Source of the DNA: an uncultured Allomuricauda sp.
GTDB taxonomy: Bacteria; Bacteroidota; Bacteroidia; Flavobacteriales; Flavobacteriaceae
Reading direction: 5' to 3'
Length of the DNA: 64,000 bases
Assembly: GCF_947495325.1 (NCBI RefSeq)
Contig: NZ_CANLYK010000002.1
Coordinates: 496,001-560,000, forward strand
Shown: piece after piece, positions 58,450 through 64,000 of the stretch
Layout: each line of letters starts with the position of its first letter
Numbering within the stretch: the stretch's first letter is position 1
The notes under the pieces: generated by a model
The model's input: the letters and a program-made list of their open reading frames with translations, nothing else
Database searches by the model: none
What the model was told of the DNA's origin: nothing
Position numbers and translations under genes: made by a program

Positions 58450-59052
58450 CTAGTATCTAGATCCATCATGTTTTCCTTCTTCCCAGCCATGTTTGCCCAA
58501 ATACTGTTCACCACTTTCCACAGCACCTTCTTCAATAGAGGTACCCATAGAATCGTTCCAACGGTTGAGGTAACCAAACAAGGAAATCACCCCTAACATT
58601 TCTACAATCTCGCCTTCGTTCCAATGTTTATATAAACGCGCCTTTATTTCAGCATCCACTGCATTGGGAACTTGGGAGGCAGCCAAAGAAAAATCCAAAG
58701 CAGCACGTTCGGCCTCAGAAAAAGCTGGATGCGTTCTATATTCCCAAATATTATCCAATTGTTCCTGCTCCGCTCCGTAGCGTTCCGCTGCCCGTATAGC
58801 ATGTGCCTGGCAATAGCGACATCCGGTGGAATTGCTGCTTACCCAGGCAATCATACGTTTTAAAGCTGAGGTTACCCTTCCTTCATTCGCCATTACCGCT
58901 TTGTTCAAGTTAATAAACGCCTTTGAAATAGCAGGCCTATGCTGCATGGTCAAGACTGAATTTGGGCAAAACCCAAGGGTCTCGTTAAAGAATTCAGCTA
59001 GCTTTTTTGTCTCTGAATCATGATTAGGGTCAAGCGGATTTACTAAGGCCAT
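58450..59052 (-). CDS. carboxymuconolactone decarboxylase/AhpD-like (peroxidase-related) protein
   Basis: Protein of 200 aa. The AhpD-type redox motif is GCRYCQAHAIRAAERYG, with two Cys and the His that normally supports them; further helices include EAERAALDFSLAASQVPNAV and EGEIVEMLGVISLFGYLNRWNDSM, as in the peroxidase-related CMD subfamily. It likely reduces peroxides or acts as a redox partner. It is divergent from and 55 bp away from the OsmC gene, another peroxide-related protein; the shared region may carry both promoters. Confidence 0.88.
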   Translation of the reverse strand: MALVNPLDPNHDSETKKLAEFFNETLGFCPNSVLTMQHRPAISKAFINLNKAVMANEGRVTSALKRMIAWVSSNSTGCRYCQAHAIRAAERYGAEQEQLDNIWEYRTHPAFSEAERAALDFSLAASQVPNAVDAEIKARLYKHWNEGEIVEMLGVISLFGYLNRWNDSMGTSIEEGAVESGEQYLGKHGWEEGKHDGSRY

Positions 59053-59107
59053 GAATGTAGTTTTAAATTGTATTTTTGAAAGCTACAAGAAACGAAAATT
59101 TGACTTC

Positions 59108-59530
59108 ATGACAAATCATATAACTACCAAATGGCTGGGCGAAATGGCCTTTGAAAGCAACAACCCCTCAGGGTTAAATTTAAAGATTGATGCGGGCCCG
59201 GATAGTGGTGGGAAGGGGGAAGGCTTCCGCCCTAAAGCTTTGATGCTTTCCGCTCTTGCAGGTTGTTCAGGACTGGATGTGGCTTCGCTAATAAAAAAAA
59301 TGAAACTGGAAGTAGATGATTTTTCAATTGAAACCATTGCAAACTTAACCGACGAGCACCCCAAATACTACGATTCGGTTACAATAGAATATCATTTTCA
59401 CGGTGCTGATTTGAAGGAAGGGAAATTAAAAAAGGCGGTGGACTTATCGGTGGAAAAATACTGTGGGGTTATGGAGATGTTCCGAAAATTTGCCAAATTG
59501 GAGATTAAGACGATTTTTCATCATAAGTAA
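59108..59530 (+). CDS. OsmC-family protein (peroxide-reducing type)
   Basis: Protein of 140 aa. The two redox cysteines lie in LAGCSGLDVASLI and EKYCGVMEMF, the OsmC/Ohr pattern of thiol peroxidases that detoxify organic hydroperoxides. I use the ATG at 59108; the in-frame start at 59051 would overlap the divergent AhpD-like gene and add 19 unlike residues. Confidence 0.9.
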   Translation: MTNHITTKWLGEMAFESNNPSGLNLKIDAGPDSGGKGEGFRPKALMLSALAGCSGLDVASLIKKMKLEVDDFSIETIANLTDEHPKYYDSVTIEYHFHGADLKEGKLKKAVDLSVEKYCGVMEMFRKFAKLEIKTIFHHK

Positions 59531-59536
59531 AACGAG

Positions 59537-59570
59537 TTCAAACTCAAACTCAAGTTTAAACTCAAATTCA
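59537..59570 (+). repeat. degenerate tandem AAACTC-type repeat before the four-helix-bundle gene
   Basis: Five to six imperfect copies of a hexamer reading TTCAAACTC, AAACTCAAG, TTTAAACTC, AAATTCA. A related stretch in the opposite sense, TTGAACTTGAACTTC, follows the gene at 60014-60028. Confidence 0.5.
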
Positions 59571-59638
59571 GACATCAAGTACAAGTTTCAGAAACAGCTG
59601 GAATAGATTTTATTTCAACCTCAAATTAATTTTAGTCA

Positions 59639-59998
59639 ATGATTTTTATGGACAAAAAATTTGATTTAGAGGATAGATTTGTTGATTTTGCGGCGAAGGT
59701 TGCCCTATTTTGCAAGGACCTGCCCAACGATTTTACGGGACAATATTATGGAAATCAACTTCTACGTTCAGGAGGAAGTGCTGCCCTAAACTTTGGTGAA
59801 GCCCTTGGAACAAATACGAATAAAGATTATATCTACAAGGCTTCACTAACCTTAAAGGAACTTAAGGAATCACGGATCAACATAAAGATTTTAAACCGAA
59901 TCGAGTACGGCTCCTATGAAATTAAAAATAGCCTGTTAAATGAATTAGAGCAGTTGATTAAGATAATTGCCACCATAATCAAAAACAAAACCCCTTGA
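59639..59998 (+). CDS. four helix bundle protein (23S rRNA intervening-sequence type)
   Basis: Protein of 119 aa, almost entirely helical. The segments EDRFVDFAAKVALFCKDLP, YYGNQLLRSGGSAALNFGEA and LKELKESRINIKIL follow the pattern of the S23/IVP family, first seen as ORFs inside rRNA intervening sequences and now common as single genes in Bacteroidota. Function unknown; possible RNA or nucleoprotein binder. Start at 59639, with a second in-frame ATG at 59648. Short repeated motifs lie on both sides, and the gene interrupts the space between OsmC and recJ. Confidence 0.85.
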   Translation: MIFMDKKFDLEDRFVDFAAKVALFCKDLPNDFTGQYYGNQLLRSGGSAALNFGEALGTNTNKDYIYKASLTLKELKESRINIKILNRIEYGSYEIKNSLLNELEQLIKIIATIIKNKTP

Positions 59999-60032
59999 AT
60001 TTGCACTTAATTTTTGAACTTGAACTTCACCC

Positions 60033-61727: not shown

Positions 61728-62984
61728 ATGGATCCATACGCAGCCCTCCGTTATAAGGAATTCAATATTTTTTTATTGGCAAGGTTTGCCATGGTCTTTG
61801 CATGGTCCATGCAGTTTATTGTAATTGAATGGCAAGTCTATTCATTGACCAAGGATCCATTGTCACTTGGAATTATTGGGCTAATGGAAGTAATACCTGC
61901 AGTAGGCATGGCCCTTTTTGCCGGACACATTGTGGATCAAAAAGAAAAGCGAAATCTATTGATTAAATGCATCTTAGGATTTTCGGTTGTGAGTTTGGGA
62001 TTGTTCTTTTTAAGTCTTCCCTCTTTGGAAACCAGTCTGGCACCTAAAAAACTATTGTACAGCATTTATCTTTTAGTGTTTTTTGGGGGATTGGTAAGAG
62101 CTTTTTTAGGCCCTACTATTTTTTCCTTGATAGCGCTGATCGTTCCCAAGAAAATTTATCCCAATGCCGCAACATGGAGTAGTACCACATGGCAAATGGC
62201 CTCTGTTTTGGGACCTGCCTTGGCCGGTTTTTCTATAAGTTGGATTGGGGTACATTGGTCTATGTGCGTCATTTTTGCATTCTCAATTATCGCTTTGGTG
62301 TTTGTTTTGAGAATTTCACGGAAACCAATATTAAACCCAAAAATTGGAGAGCCTGTTTTAAAAAGCCTTAAGGATGGATTAAAGTTTGTTTTCAATAGTC
62401 AAGCTATTTCAGGGGCCTTAACAATTGATATGATAGCGGTGCTGTTTGGTGGTGCGGTGGCGCTTTTGCCTATATATGCACAGGATATTTTGCATGTTGG
62501 TGCTGAAGGTTTTGGTCTTTTAAGAGCAGCTCCAGCAGTTGGCGCCTTAATTACCATGGTAGGCTCAACAAGATTTCCGTTACACAAATATGCAGGTAAA
62601 AAACTACTGCTATCCGTATTGGCATTTGGAGTTTGTATTCTAGTTTTTGGTGTTTCAACCTCTTTTTGGCTTTCAGTGATTGCCTTGTTTTTAAGTGGTG
62701 CCGTAGATGGGGTTTCCATGGTAATCCGCCAAACCATCCTACAACTAAAAACACCGGATCATATGCGGGGTAGGGTTGCTTCGGTAAATTCAATATTTGT
62801 AGGGTCGTCCAACGAACTTGGGGCTTTTGAAAGTGGTCTGGCCGCCAAACTTTTGGGAACGGTAAACGCAGTTATTTTTGGAGGTTGCATGACCATATTG
62901 ACCGTTGGAGTAACTACTTTGGTTTCGCCAAGTTTTAGAAAACTGGATTTATCAAAAGAAGTTGAGGAACATGAGTCAGTATAG
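61728..62984 (+). CDS. MFS transporter (DHA3-like)
   Basis: Twelve-helix major facilitator of 418 aa. Features are RYKEFNIFLLARFAMVFAWSMQFI at the start, the loop AGHIVDQKEKRNLLI (the family's G-x-x-x-D-R-x-x-R/K loop between helices 2 and 3), and LKTPDHMRGRVASVNSIFVGSSNELG, typical of the DHA3/EntS-type exporters. Probably exports a small molecule such as a siderophore or drug; the substrate is unknown. Co-transcribed with recJ by spacing. Confidence 0.88.
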   Translation: MDPYAALRYKEFNIFLLARFAMVFAWSMQFIVIEWQVYSLTKDPLSLGIIGLMEVIPAVGMALFAGHIVDQKEKRNLLIKCILGFSVVSLGLFFLSLPSLETSLAPKKLLYSIYLLVFFGGLVRAFLGPTIFSLIALIVPKKIYPNAATWSSTTWQMASVLGPALAGFSISWIGVHWSMCVIFAFSIIALVFVLRISRKPILNPKIGEPVLKSLKDGLKFVFNSQAISGALTIDMIAVLFGGAVALLPIYAQDILHVGAEGFGLLRAAPAVGALITMVGSTRFPLHKYAGKKLLLSVLAFGVCILVFGVSTSFWLSVIALFLSGAVDGVSMVIRQTILQLKTPDHMRGRVASVNSIFVGSSNELGAFESGLAAKLLGTVNAVIFGGCMTILTVGVTTLVSPSFRKLDLSKEVEEHESV

Positions 62985-63000
62985 CGGCTTGAATTTAATT

Positions 63001-63039
63001 CGTCAGTTCGAGTTTTTGCGAAAGCAAAAGTATCGAGAA
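63001..63039 (+). repeat. left two-part repeat of a GIY-YIG element
   Basis: Two blocks, CGTCAGTTCGAGT (63001-63013) and GTATCGAGAA (63030-63039), separated by a hairpin TTTTGC-GAAA-GCAAAA (63014-63029). Both blocks recur exactly in reverse complement after the nuclease gene. Confidence 0.75.
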
Positions 63040-63082
63040 CAAGTAATTTTGATAAAACCAGAATTGTATTGAGAAGTAAATA

Positions 63083-63373
63083 ATGAAACAGTCATTTGTC
63101 TATATTTTGGAATGTTCCGATGGGACATATTATACAGGGGTTACTTCTAATTTGGAACAAAGATTGTTTGAACATGAATCGGGGAAACATATAAATAGTT
63201 ATACGTATTTGCGAAGACCGGTTACTTTGGTTTTTTATGGCGAATTCACAGACATAAATTCAGCTATAGAAAAAGAAAAACAAATTAAAAAATGGTCAAA
63301 AGCCAAAAAGAAAGCTTTGATTGATGGGGCTTATGATAAGCTTCCAAATCTTGCTAAAAAGAAGTTTCAGTAG
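63083..63373 (+). CDS. GIY-YIG nuclease family protein (stand-alone domain)
   Basis: Single-domain protein of 96 aa. The GIY-YIG core is visible in YILECSDGTYYTGVTSNLEQRLFEHESGKH, with Tyr, Arg (QRLFEH) and the Glu of AIEKEKQIKKW as catalytic residues. This is the UvrC/homing-endonuclease fold; the solitary form is common in Flavobacteriia and its job is unknown. It is enclosed by two-part inverted repeats, the right copy beginning 4 bp after the stop, so gene and repeats likely move as one unit. Confidence 0.9.
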   Translation: MKQSFVYILECSDGTYYTGVTSNLEQRLFEHESGKHINSYTYLRRPVTLVFYGEFTDINSAIEKEKQIKKWSKAKKKALIDGAYDKLPNLAKKKFQ

Positions 63374-63376
63374 TGA

Positions 63377-63419
63377 TTCTCGATACATTCCGAACAAGTT
63401 CGAAACACTCGAACTGACG
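63377..63419 (-). repeat. right two-part repeat of a GIY-YIG element
   Basis: In reverse complement the blocks read CGTCAGTTCGAGT (63407-63419) and GTATCGAGAA (63377-63386), each an exact match to the left copy. The spacer differs in sequence but is again able to fold, with TTCG-AAC and GTT-CGGAA arms. Confidence 0.75.
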
Positions 63420-63530: not shown

Positions 63531-64000
63531 TCAAGGTGATATAAGTTCAAATTTTTCCAAGGACAGTTTTTCCCCATCAAAAACGGCATAGGTAAAATAA
63601 GAAATCCAATCTCCTAAATTGGTATATCTGGACTTATCATTAAGTTGAATTTCCATAGGAAGGTGTCGATGGCCAAAAATAAAGTGGTCGTAGTGCTTTT
63701 GTTCCAGTTTTCTTTTGGCATACAGCACTAGCCATTCCTTATCTTCTCCCAGAAATTTGGCATCCGCATCGCCGGAAATGATTTTATTGTTTATGGAAAG
63801 GTGTTGTGCCAACCGAACCCCTATATCTGGATGCAACCATTTAAAGAACCATTTGGCCACAGGGTTGATAAACACTTTTTTCATGCGTTTATATCCTTTG
63901 TCATGAGGACCTAGTCCATCGCCGTGACCAATAAAAAATGAGGTGCCATTTATGGTATATTGTTCAGGTTTGTGAAAAACAGGAATGTTTAGCTCTTCCT
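63531..64000 (-). CDS. UDP-2,3-diacylglucosamine diphosphatase-like phosphoesterase (LpxH-like), cut by window edge
   Basis: The minus-strand frame is open through the right edge of the window, so the N terminus lies outside. Visible are GHGDGLGPHDKGYKRM, a metallophosphoesterase metal-binding motif, then the cap region and HFIFGHRHLPMEI with the last metal-binding His pair. This matches the LpxH family that hydrolyses UDP-diacylglucosamine in lipid A synthesis. An internal ATG at 63884 is not the start, since the homologous sequence continues upstream of it. Confidence 0.88.
   Translation of the reverse strand, partial: EELNIPVFHKPEQYTINGTSFFIGHGDGLGPHDKGYKRMKKVFINPVAKWFFKWLHPDIGVRLAQHLSINNKIISGDADAKFLGEDKEWLVLYAKRKLEQKHYDHFIFGHRHLPMEIQLNDKSRYTNLGDWISYFTYAVFDGEKLSLEKFELISP

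Follow-up and report, generated by a model that had tools for sequence, protein, structure and literature searches.

Small GIY-YIG nuclease genes between inverted CGTC-tagged repeats: a possible counterpart of the REP-RAYT partnership

In the genome of an uncultured Allomuricauda a small gene for a GIY-YIG nuclease lies between two inverted copies of a two-part repeat, which raises the question of whether nuclease and repeat belong together and, if they do, what sort of entity they form. A ready comparison is with REP sequences, REPINs and their RAYTs. Here too a small nuclease gene is enclosed by its own palindromic repeats, gene-less copies exist and repeats occur as inverted dimers, whereas the enzyme is of the GIY-YIG type and the tag CGTC, in place of the HUH tyrosine transposase and the GTAG tag of REP-RAYT systems and REPINs.

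CGTC-tagged REPs were defined in five phyla by Di Nocera et al. 2013 (PMC3733652) as elements with a CGTC or TGTC head, a palindromic stem and a short tail, arranged mostly as HH dimers; Gramella forsetii and Bradyrhizobium are named among the carriers, and the Neisseria dRS3 is listed as a CGTC-1 element. In the part of that survey's text at hand, these REPs 'apparently lack a dedicated transposase': CGTC repeats flanked none of the tyrosine transposase genes, the few associations with others were fortuitous, and what makes and keeps the repeats was left open. The locus described here differs in that the repeats enclose a GIY-YIG gene.

The locus, its repeat and its nuclease

The window – the whole stretch of 64,000 nucleotides that was analysed – holds most of the features collected in Table 1. 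A first-pass annotation had described two sequence blocks before the gene that return, exactly inverted, after it, and both are present just as it stated. It had also put the right copy 4 bp after the stop codon: the repeat does begin on the fourth base, but only three bases lie between. Within the window the 13-mer CGTCAGTTCGAGT, with up to two mismatches allowed, occurs twice against 0.38 occurrences expected by chance (two or more matches arose in 6 of 100 shuffles of the window), and no match was found there beyond the two flanking copies.

Table 1. Features of the locus and of a related unit elsewhere in the genome (window positions unless a locus is named)
Feature	Position	Strand	Basis or remark
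OsmC-like gene and OsmC-recJ gap (gene names presumed)	59051..60032	+	site of relatives' nuclease unit
MFS transporter, left neighbour	61728..62984	+	name read from sequence
Left (upstream) CGTC-tagged two-part repeat	63001..63039	+	exact match; DNA fold z -2.97
Parts of left repeat, in order			CGTCAGTTCGAGT, inner hairpin TTTTGC-GAAA-GCAAAA, GTATCGAGAA
Block CGTCAGTTCGAGT, left copy	63001-63013	+	
Block GTATCGAGAA, left copy	63030-63039	+	
Probable decayed 3' part of ancestral upstream repeat	63045..63076	+	by eye against relatives' GATTCTGATAAAATCAGAATTGTATCGAGAAG
Stand-alone GIY-YIG nuclease, 96 aa, intact	63083..63373	+	PF01541, 62.4 bits; stop codon ends at 63373
Right (downstream) repeat copy, inverted	63377..63419	-	exact match
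Block GTATCGAGAA, right copy	63377-63386	-	
Block CGTCAGTTCGAGT, right copy	63407-63419	-	
Phosphoesterase-like gene (presumably LpxH-like), right neighbour	63531..63998	-	ORF list; runs off the window
Unit of ~183 bp	L003:1397-1579; L004:1397-1578		8-bp terminal inverted repeats ACCCGTAG/CTACGGGT, enclosing a window-type repeat pair

Relatives carry an upstream repeat containing GATTCTGATAAAATCAGAATTGTATCGAGAAG directly before the gene and, read by eye, the window holds what looks like its remnant between the left repeat and the ATG. With this probable decayed repeat of the relatives' type in that position, the left repeat looks newer than the gene.

The structure of the repeat was examined in 46 distinct window-type repeats, gathered by a scan of collected loci and the window. 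The outer pair, formed by the bases that follow CGTCA and GAGAA, is complementary in all 46 (32 G-C, 12 C-G and 2 G-T), a count in which independent changes are not separated, the two pair classes at orthologs being largely the upstream and the downstream copies. The spacer contains a stem of 6 or more bp in 38 of 44 distinct cases, against 11% of shuffled spacers. Given the pairing of the outer bases and the spacer stems, the ends of the window type are conserved and paired, and the inner hairpin varies in sequence and length while mostly staying palindromic. The hairpin spacers proposed in the first-pass annotation thus hold for the class and for the left copy but only weakly for the right one, whose best predicted fold differs from the two-part fold (z -1.77, fold of the single copy).

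The window repeat begins with CGTC, one of the heads (CGTC, TGTC or CCTC) of the CGTC-tagged REPs, and like them has a palindromic stem. It lacks their stem of 8-9 bp that starts with complementary A/T, their loop of 4-5 and their CCA tail; in place of these it has a short outer stem and a variable inner hairpin. Conserved ends around a variable hairpin are at odds with the stem and tail given in the available text of PMC3733652, and for this reason we regard the window type, on its sequence, as a two-part variant of CGTC-tagged REPs. A CCA tail is present, by eye, in repeats at many GIY-YIG genes of Proteobacteria.

That the gene encodes a member of the GIY-YIG nuclease superfamily is clear: the Pfam domain lies well above its cut-off of 22.6 bits, the signature Y, Y-x-G, R and E residues are conserved, and Y7, Y17-T18-G19, R27, H31 and E65 are invariant across 15 aligned relatives. 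These we take to be the positions that are catalytic in I-TevI and UvrC. An AlphaFold model (mean pLDDT 88.2) has its best PDB matches in the UPF0213 proteins 1zg2 (BH0048) and 1ywl (EF2693), at E values of at most 0.001, with Slx1 weaker (E 0.012 and above); a sequence search of solved structures likewise places 1zg2 and 1ywl closest, and they are the nearest solved structures by both sequence and fold. We know of no repeat association for UPF0213 proteins. The protein is no RAYT: Pfam finds only the GIY-YIG domain in it, and neither an HUH motif nor a catalytic tyrosine was matched. Homing in group I introns was considered and rejected, all matches to TIGR01453 falling below the cut-off.

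Copies of the repeat and their pairing with nuclease lineages

A search of the whole 4.11-Mb genome for CGTCAGTTCGAGT-N(0-30)-GTATCGAGAA gave four matches, and the backwards control none. Two of the four enclose the window gene, and the other copies that the first-pass annotation had suggested seeking are therefore two in number, at L003 and L004. Each is half of an inverted pair whose partner, by eye, is the variant CGTCAATTCGAG..GAGAAT, in which the complementary outer pair is kept. In a local alignment of 300-bp stretches the two loci match over ~183 bp, bounded by ACCCGTAG and CTACGGGT; L004 has ACTCGTAG where L003 has ACCCGTAG. Because these solitary copies belong to a separate unit that has 8-bp terminal inverted repeats of its own, they may have spread by another route than the window enzyme, and the unit is possibly a MITE of another transposase.

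Of the six GIY-YIG proteins that Pfam finds in this genome, three are larger, and the other three come from short stand-alone ORFs, whose open frames span 97, 115 and 122 codons. The other two stand-alone genes, L007 and L005, also lie among repeats, TGTC-tagged and of distinct sequence. L007 has TGTCATTCTGA..AAGAATCT on both sides, a pattern with two matches in the genome, both beside its gene; around L005 are members of a TGTCATTTCGA..GAAATCT repeat group that has further members elsewhere in the genome. PADLOC, a search for defence systems, gave no match for the window protein or that of L007 and weak matches of the L005 protein to UzuA and PDC-S14 (E 4e-4 to 6e-4 over 32-33 aa); the L005 protein also has weak uvrC-type matches below the cut-off.

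The search was extended with the window protein to 59 genomes (36 of one genus, its own included), and 38 contained a match. In six orthologs (L012-L014, L016, L018 and L020) the upstream repeat, CGTCACTTCGAGTG-hairpin-TTGTATCGAGAAG, ends 11-19 bp before the start codon and the downstream inverted repeat follows exactly four bases after the stop; the flank table of relatives left out L015 and L017, which lie on short contigs, and direct-orientation scores in it are inflated by palindromes and other flank repeats. Other nuclease lineages of the same genus have different repeats, for example GGTGGCTGAGCGnAGTCGAAGCCAC or TGTCAGGTCGAGCGCAGTCGAGACC. Two small GIY-YIG genes of another lineage, L037 and L039, were seen by eye to lie just after a tmRNA- or tRNA-like 3' end together with short repeated segments.

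A relaxed form of the window-type pattern had 148 matches in 25 of the 59 genomes, and its backwards control had none. The check proposed at the outset, whether solitary copies outnumber gene-bearing ones, comes out in favour of the former: by eye, a GIY-YIG gene found by the protein search is immediately next to 17 of the 148 and not to the other 131. The repeat type is present in 11 of the 12 genomes whose ortholog is at least 64% identical and in 14 of the 47 others; the window repeat is not rare where a close ortholog is lacking. Copy number ranges from the four exact copies of the window's own genome to 34 in a relative (G052), where most stand in clusters of near-identical copies, many of them ~160-330 bp apart. 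Outward dimers were recognised by eye in five genomes (G006, G023, G027, G032 and G039), and the other orientation occurs also in G039 and G052.

A critical issue is whether each nuclease keeps its own repeat. When non-syntenic loci from different genomes were compared, the similarity of the proteins was correlated with that of the flanks (r = 0.52; 67 loci, 2052 pairs). In the permutations that served as null model, flanks were exchanged between paralogs within each genome (56 loci in 21 genomes), such that the repeat content of each genome was kept; the mean correlation was then 0.10, the maximum 0.32, and none of 2000 permutations reached the observed value. The comparison was label-free – repeat-type labels drawn by eye entered no test – and kept 67 of 70 loci, L230, L037 and L039 being left out (contig edge, tmRNA-type genes). 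In 61 of the 67 cases the locus with the closest protein also had a flank more similar than the median of the other flanks. A crossed-flank control between related genomes was uninformative, since these share repeat families and its 95th percentile, 19, was as high as many true scores. Among relatives, then, repeat type tends to go with nuclease lineage.

Enclosure across phyla and the turnover of sites

A wider survey began from an alignment of five Bacteroidota proteins and took the best 80 of at least 566 confirmed candidates, chosen by protein similarity alone. By title the 80 loci come from Bacteroidota, Alpha-, Gamma- and other Proteobacteria, Planctomycetes, Verrucomicrobia, Patescibacteria, Clostridia, Bifidobacterium and more; about ten are from Bradyrhizobium, and the loci are not all independent. 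The detector looked on both sides, within 150 bp, for an outward-facing (C/T)GTC tag leading into a stem of 7 bp or more; it was devised after these flanks had been viewed, and neighbour ORFs of at least 100 aa from the same loci, longer than many GIY-YIG genes, were scored in the same way. Repeats of this kind enclose 42 of the 80 GIY-YIG genes (the count includes L076, L081, L094 and L120, which have short flanks) against 7 of 209 neighbour ORFs. Inverted flank similarity with a score of 14 or more was found at 51 of 80 against 6 of 209. Direct-orientation similarity at the same score, which palindromes permit, was found at 39 of 80 GIY-YIG genes and 14 of 209 neighbour ORFs; because it too is common at the former, the inverted score is weak evidence when taken alone. 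By either measure (outward repeats or inverted similarity) 62 of the 80 stand out and 18 do not; tags face inward on both sides in ten. An origin of the flanking repeats by chance or as terminators was also considered, and is unlikely by the neighbour-ORF and orientation controls.

The enclosures are tight. Among the 42 loci the start codon lies a median 20 bp from its repeat and the stop codon a median 6.5 bp, the repeat overlaps the reading frame in ten of them, and at several survey loci the stop codon TGA belongs to the TGACA of the repeat. Five loci from a plasmid collection (L150-L154), read by eye, gave outward CGTC repeats on both sides in three and none at L153; on plasmid AZO_p3 of Azospirillum lipoferum CGTC repeat pairs lie before and after a GIY-YIG gene (L150:1492-1785) that is placed between sufB and sufC.

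The GIY-YIG family may not be alone in this arrangement. At Bradyrhizobium genes for DUF559 proteins (PF04480; L260-L289, of which L287-L289 are weaker matches in proteins of ~400 aa or more) an inverted flank score of at least 14 was reached by 10 of 25 genes and by 0 of 27 neighbour ORFs, 5 of the 30 loci having been set aside for short flanks; direct similarity of that score was found in 8 of the 25. The flanks often hold inverted repeats of CCCTCTCCC..GGGTGAGGGG type, and DUF559 with CCCTCTCCC-type repeats is possibly a second nuclease family with its own repeats.

Whether the enclosed genes move is a separate matter. Among the relatives of the window protein seven orthologs share both flanks of an OsmC-recJ site (the gap was examined in five), and an eighth has one flank in common with them; many orthologs stand in synteny and have the look of vertical inheritance. 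The window nuclease unit lies ~3 kb from this site, after the MFS gene, and on its sequence would be a differently placed copy of the relatives' OsmC-recJ unit. A four-helix-bundle gene, presumably S23-like, occupies window positions 59639-59998 and fills the gap where relatives hold the GIY-YIG unit. Read by eye, the 260 bp after the MFS counterpart contain no GIY-YIG gene in 23 other genomes; in four of these (L166, L173, L167 and L175) the junction carries other (C/T)GTC repeat families. Read by eye, the intergenic DNA of the MFS-lpxH junction showed no recognisable counterpart even in the closest relatives, and no insertion ends were definable there.

A second view of placement comes from the dnaN-recF gap of Bradyrhizobium, where 116 of 117 genomes yielded the dnaN end and 30 loci were examined (L190-L219; gene names by eye). 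Eight hold full units, and four hold repeat pairs without an intact gene. One of the four, L207, has both outer repeats and the first ~46 bases of the gene with the middle missing, and reads as a natural internal deletion. Thirteen have DUF559-like motifs (short patterns within 1,200 bp), four another repeat, and one, L210, is unclassified. A bare gap was not seen among the 30, of which 29 hold a recognised repeat or nuclease gene. Taken together, the sequences show signs of turnover of units between genomic sites. The first-pass annotation had likened the locus to REP sequences with their RAYT nucleases and supposed that the enzyme may mobilise or propagate its repeats, a reading that is partly upheld: the parallel is borne out in the linkage across phyla, the own repeat type in relatives, the solitary copies and the varied sites, but a clean empty site with defined ends and a target duplication were found at neither the MFS-lpxH nor the dnaN-recF gaps.

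What the enclosed nucleases may be

A compact unit of selfish type – a small GIY-YIG nuclease and two inverted copies of a repeat that it is predicted to recognise by binding – is, in our estimate, just on the probable side. The enzyme would bind the hairpin form of its repeat on DNA that is single-stranded during replication, repair or DNA uptake, and would cut near the CGTC tag. The outward tags would delimit a segment holding the gene, or the repeat pair alone, and host repair might then copy or move that segment into other intergenic sites. Gene-less pairs and single repeats would be dependents or leftovers, as REPs are to RAYT enzymes. Counting against such a unit are the 18 of 80 survey loci that stand out by neither measure, the inward tags at the gonococcal L152 and the lack of repeats at L153, the L007-type pattern with its two matches beside that gene alone, the repeat type in 14 of 47 genomes that lack a close ortholog, the syntenic orthologs and the solitary copies within the ~183-bp unit. 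To our knowledge, a GIY-YIG enzyme acting on hairpins of single-stranded DNA is a mode known for no prokaryotic transposon.

Part of this picture has a precedent. Chenal, Veyrier and co-workers reportedly described, in Nature Communications in 2025, 'Ssn' GIY-YIG enzymes of Neisseria meningitidis that cut single-stranded DNA at their own repeats; these repeats are said to exist in hundreds of copies, the enzymes to have thousands of homologs, and transformation to be affected. Like the window system, Ssn pairs a small stand-alone GIY-YIG enzyme with a cognate genome-wide repeat. A gonococcal homolog (L152), presumably Ssn itself, relates the window protein to that family with 44% identity over 78 aa (E 8e-16, a single pair). 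No start codon was found in frame at the L152 match. Two bases after this gene comes CGTCATTCCCGC..GCGGGAATCCGG, which we take to be close to the dRS3 element, and a second repeat follows further on; their tags point towards the gene, opposite to the enclosed units, and the gene is not outward-enclosed. Among the matches listed by a literature search, no paper joined GIY-YIG with REPs. The nuclease-repeat partnership has probably been published already; as far as checked, the newer elements are the enclosed unit, the cognate-pairing test, the link to CGTC-tagged REPs and the evidence of turnover.

These parallels sustain a different reading, a minority possibility that deserves weight: the enzyme may be a genome-dynamics factor of the Ssn type and not a transposon, cutting single-stranded DNA at repeats and so shaping natural transformation and recombination, with ordinary recombination spreading the repeats and the flanking copies aiding exchange of the gene between strains. 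The reported effect on transformation, the gonococcal homolog with its inward-tagged dRS3-like repeats and no enclosed unit, and the many units that stay at one site all fit such a role. It accounts less readily for units and gene-less pairs at different sites in relatives, and for repeat types that track protein lineage even at non-syntenic sites. Another enzyme, an HUH RAYT or a DDE transposase, might instead move the repeats, the GIY-YIG gene being a passenger or a homing-type parasite of REP clusters; the ~183-bp unit that holds the solitary copies of the window's own genome, with its 8-bp terminal inverted repeats, and the DUF559 genes with other repeats that the dnaN-recF gap also takes are consistent with this, but cognate pairing points to the GIY-YIG enzyme itself and the available text of the 2013 survey (PMC3733652) reports no tyrosine transposase gene flanked by CGTC repeats, so that we judge it improbable. 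Least credible is that terminators or ordinary REPs have piled up around many small genes, with the GIY-YIG link a by-product of REP-rich genomes: REPs are indeed common between genes (one lies upstream of 31 and one downstream of 39 of the 209 neighbour ORFs) and hidden bias in gene size or position could rescue the idea, but it is largely contradicted by both-sided outward repeats being ~15 times commoner at GIY-YIG genes and by repeat types that track protein lineage within genomes.

Returning to the nuclease and its repeats as a selfish-type unit, a wider proposal may be ventured, tentatively and as something short of probable: stand-alone GIY-YIG nucleases would be the dedicated enzymes of CGTC-tagged REPs across phyla, the repeat-nuclease-repeat units autonomous mobile elements that act on single-stranded hairpins, and the repeat pairs their non-autonomous offspring, with DUF559 as perhaps a parallel case. 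Because relatives in many phyla are often built in the same way, we suggest small GIY-YIG nucleases as the missing partners of the orphan class of CGTC-tagged REPs. Our survey ties CGTC repeats, lineage by lineage, to a small purifiable nuclease, and the GIY-YIG enzyme would stand where RAYTs stand for GTAG REPs. For annotators, the flanks of each nuclease gene would serve to predict where that enzyme recognises DNA, a useful guide if the enzymes cut single-stranded DNA at defined sites. Should the DUF559 pattern hold, small nucleases may repeatedly have taken to living between repeats that they themselves recognise.
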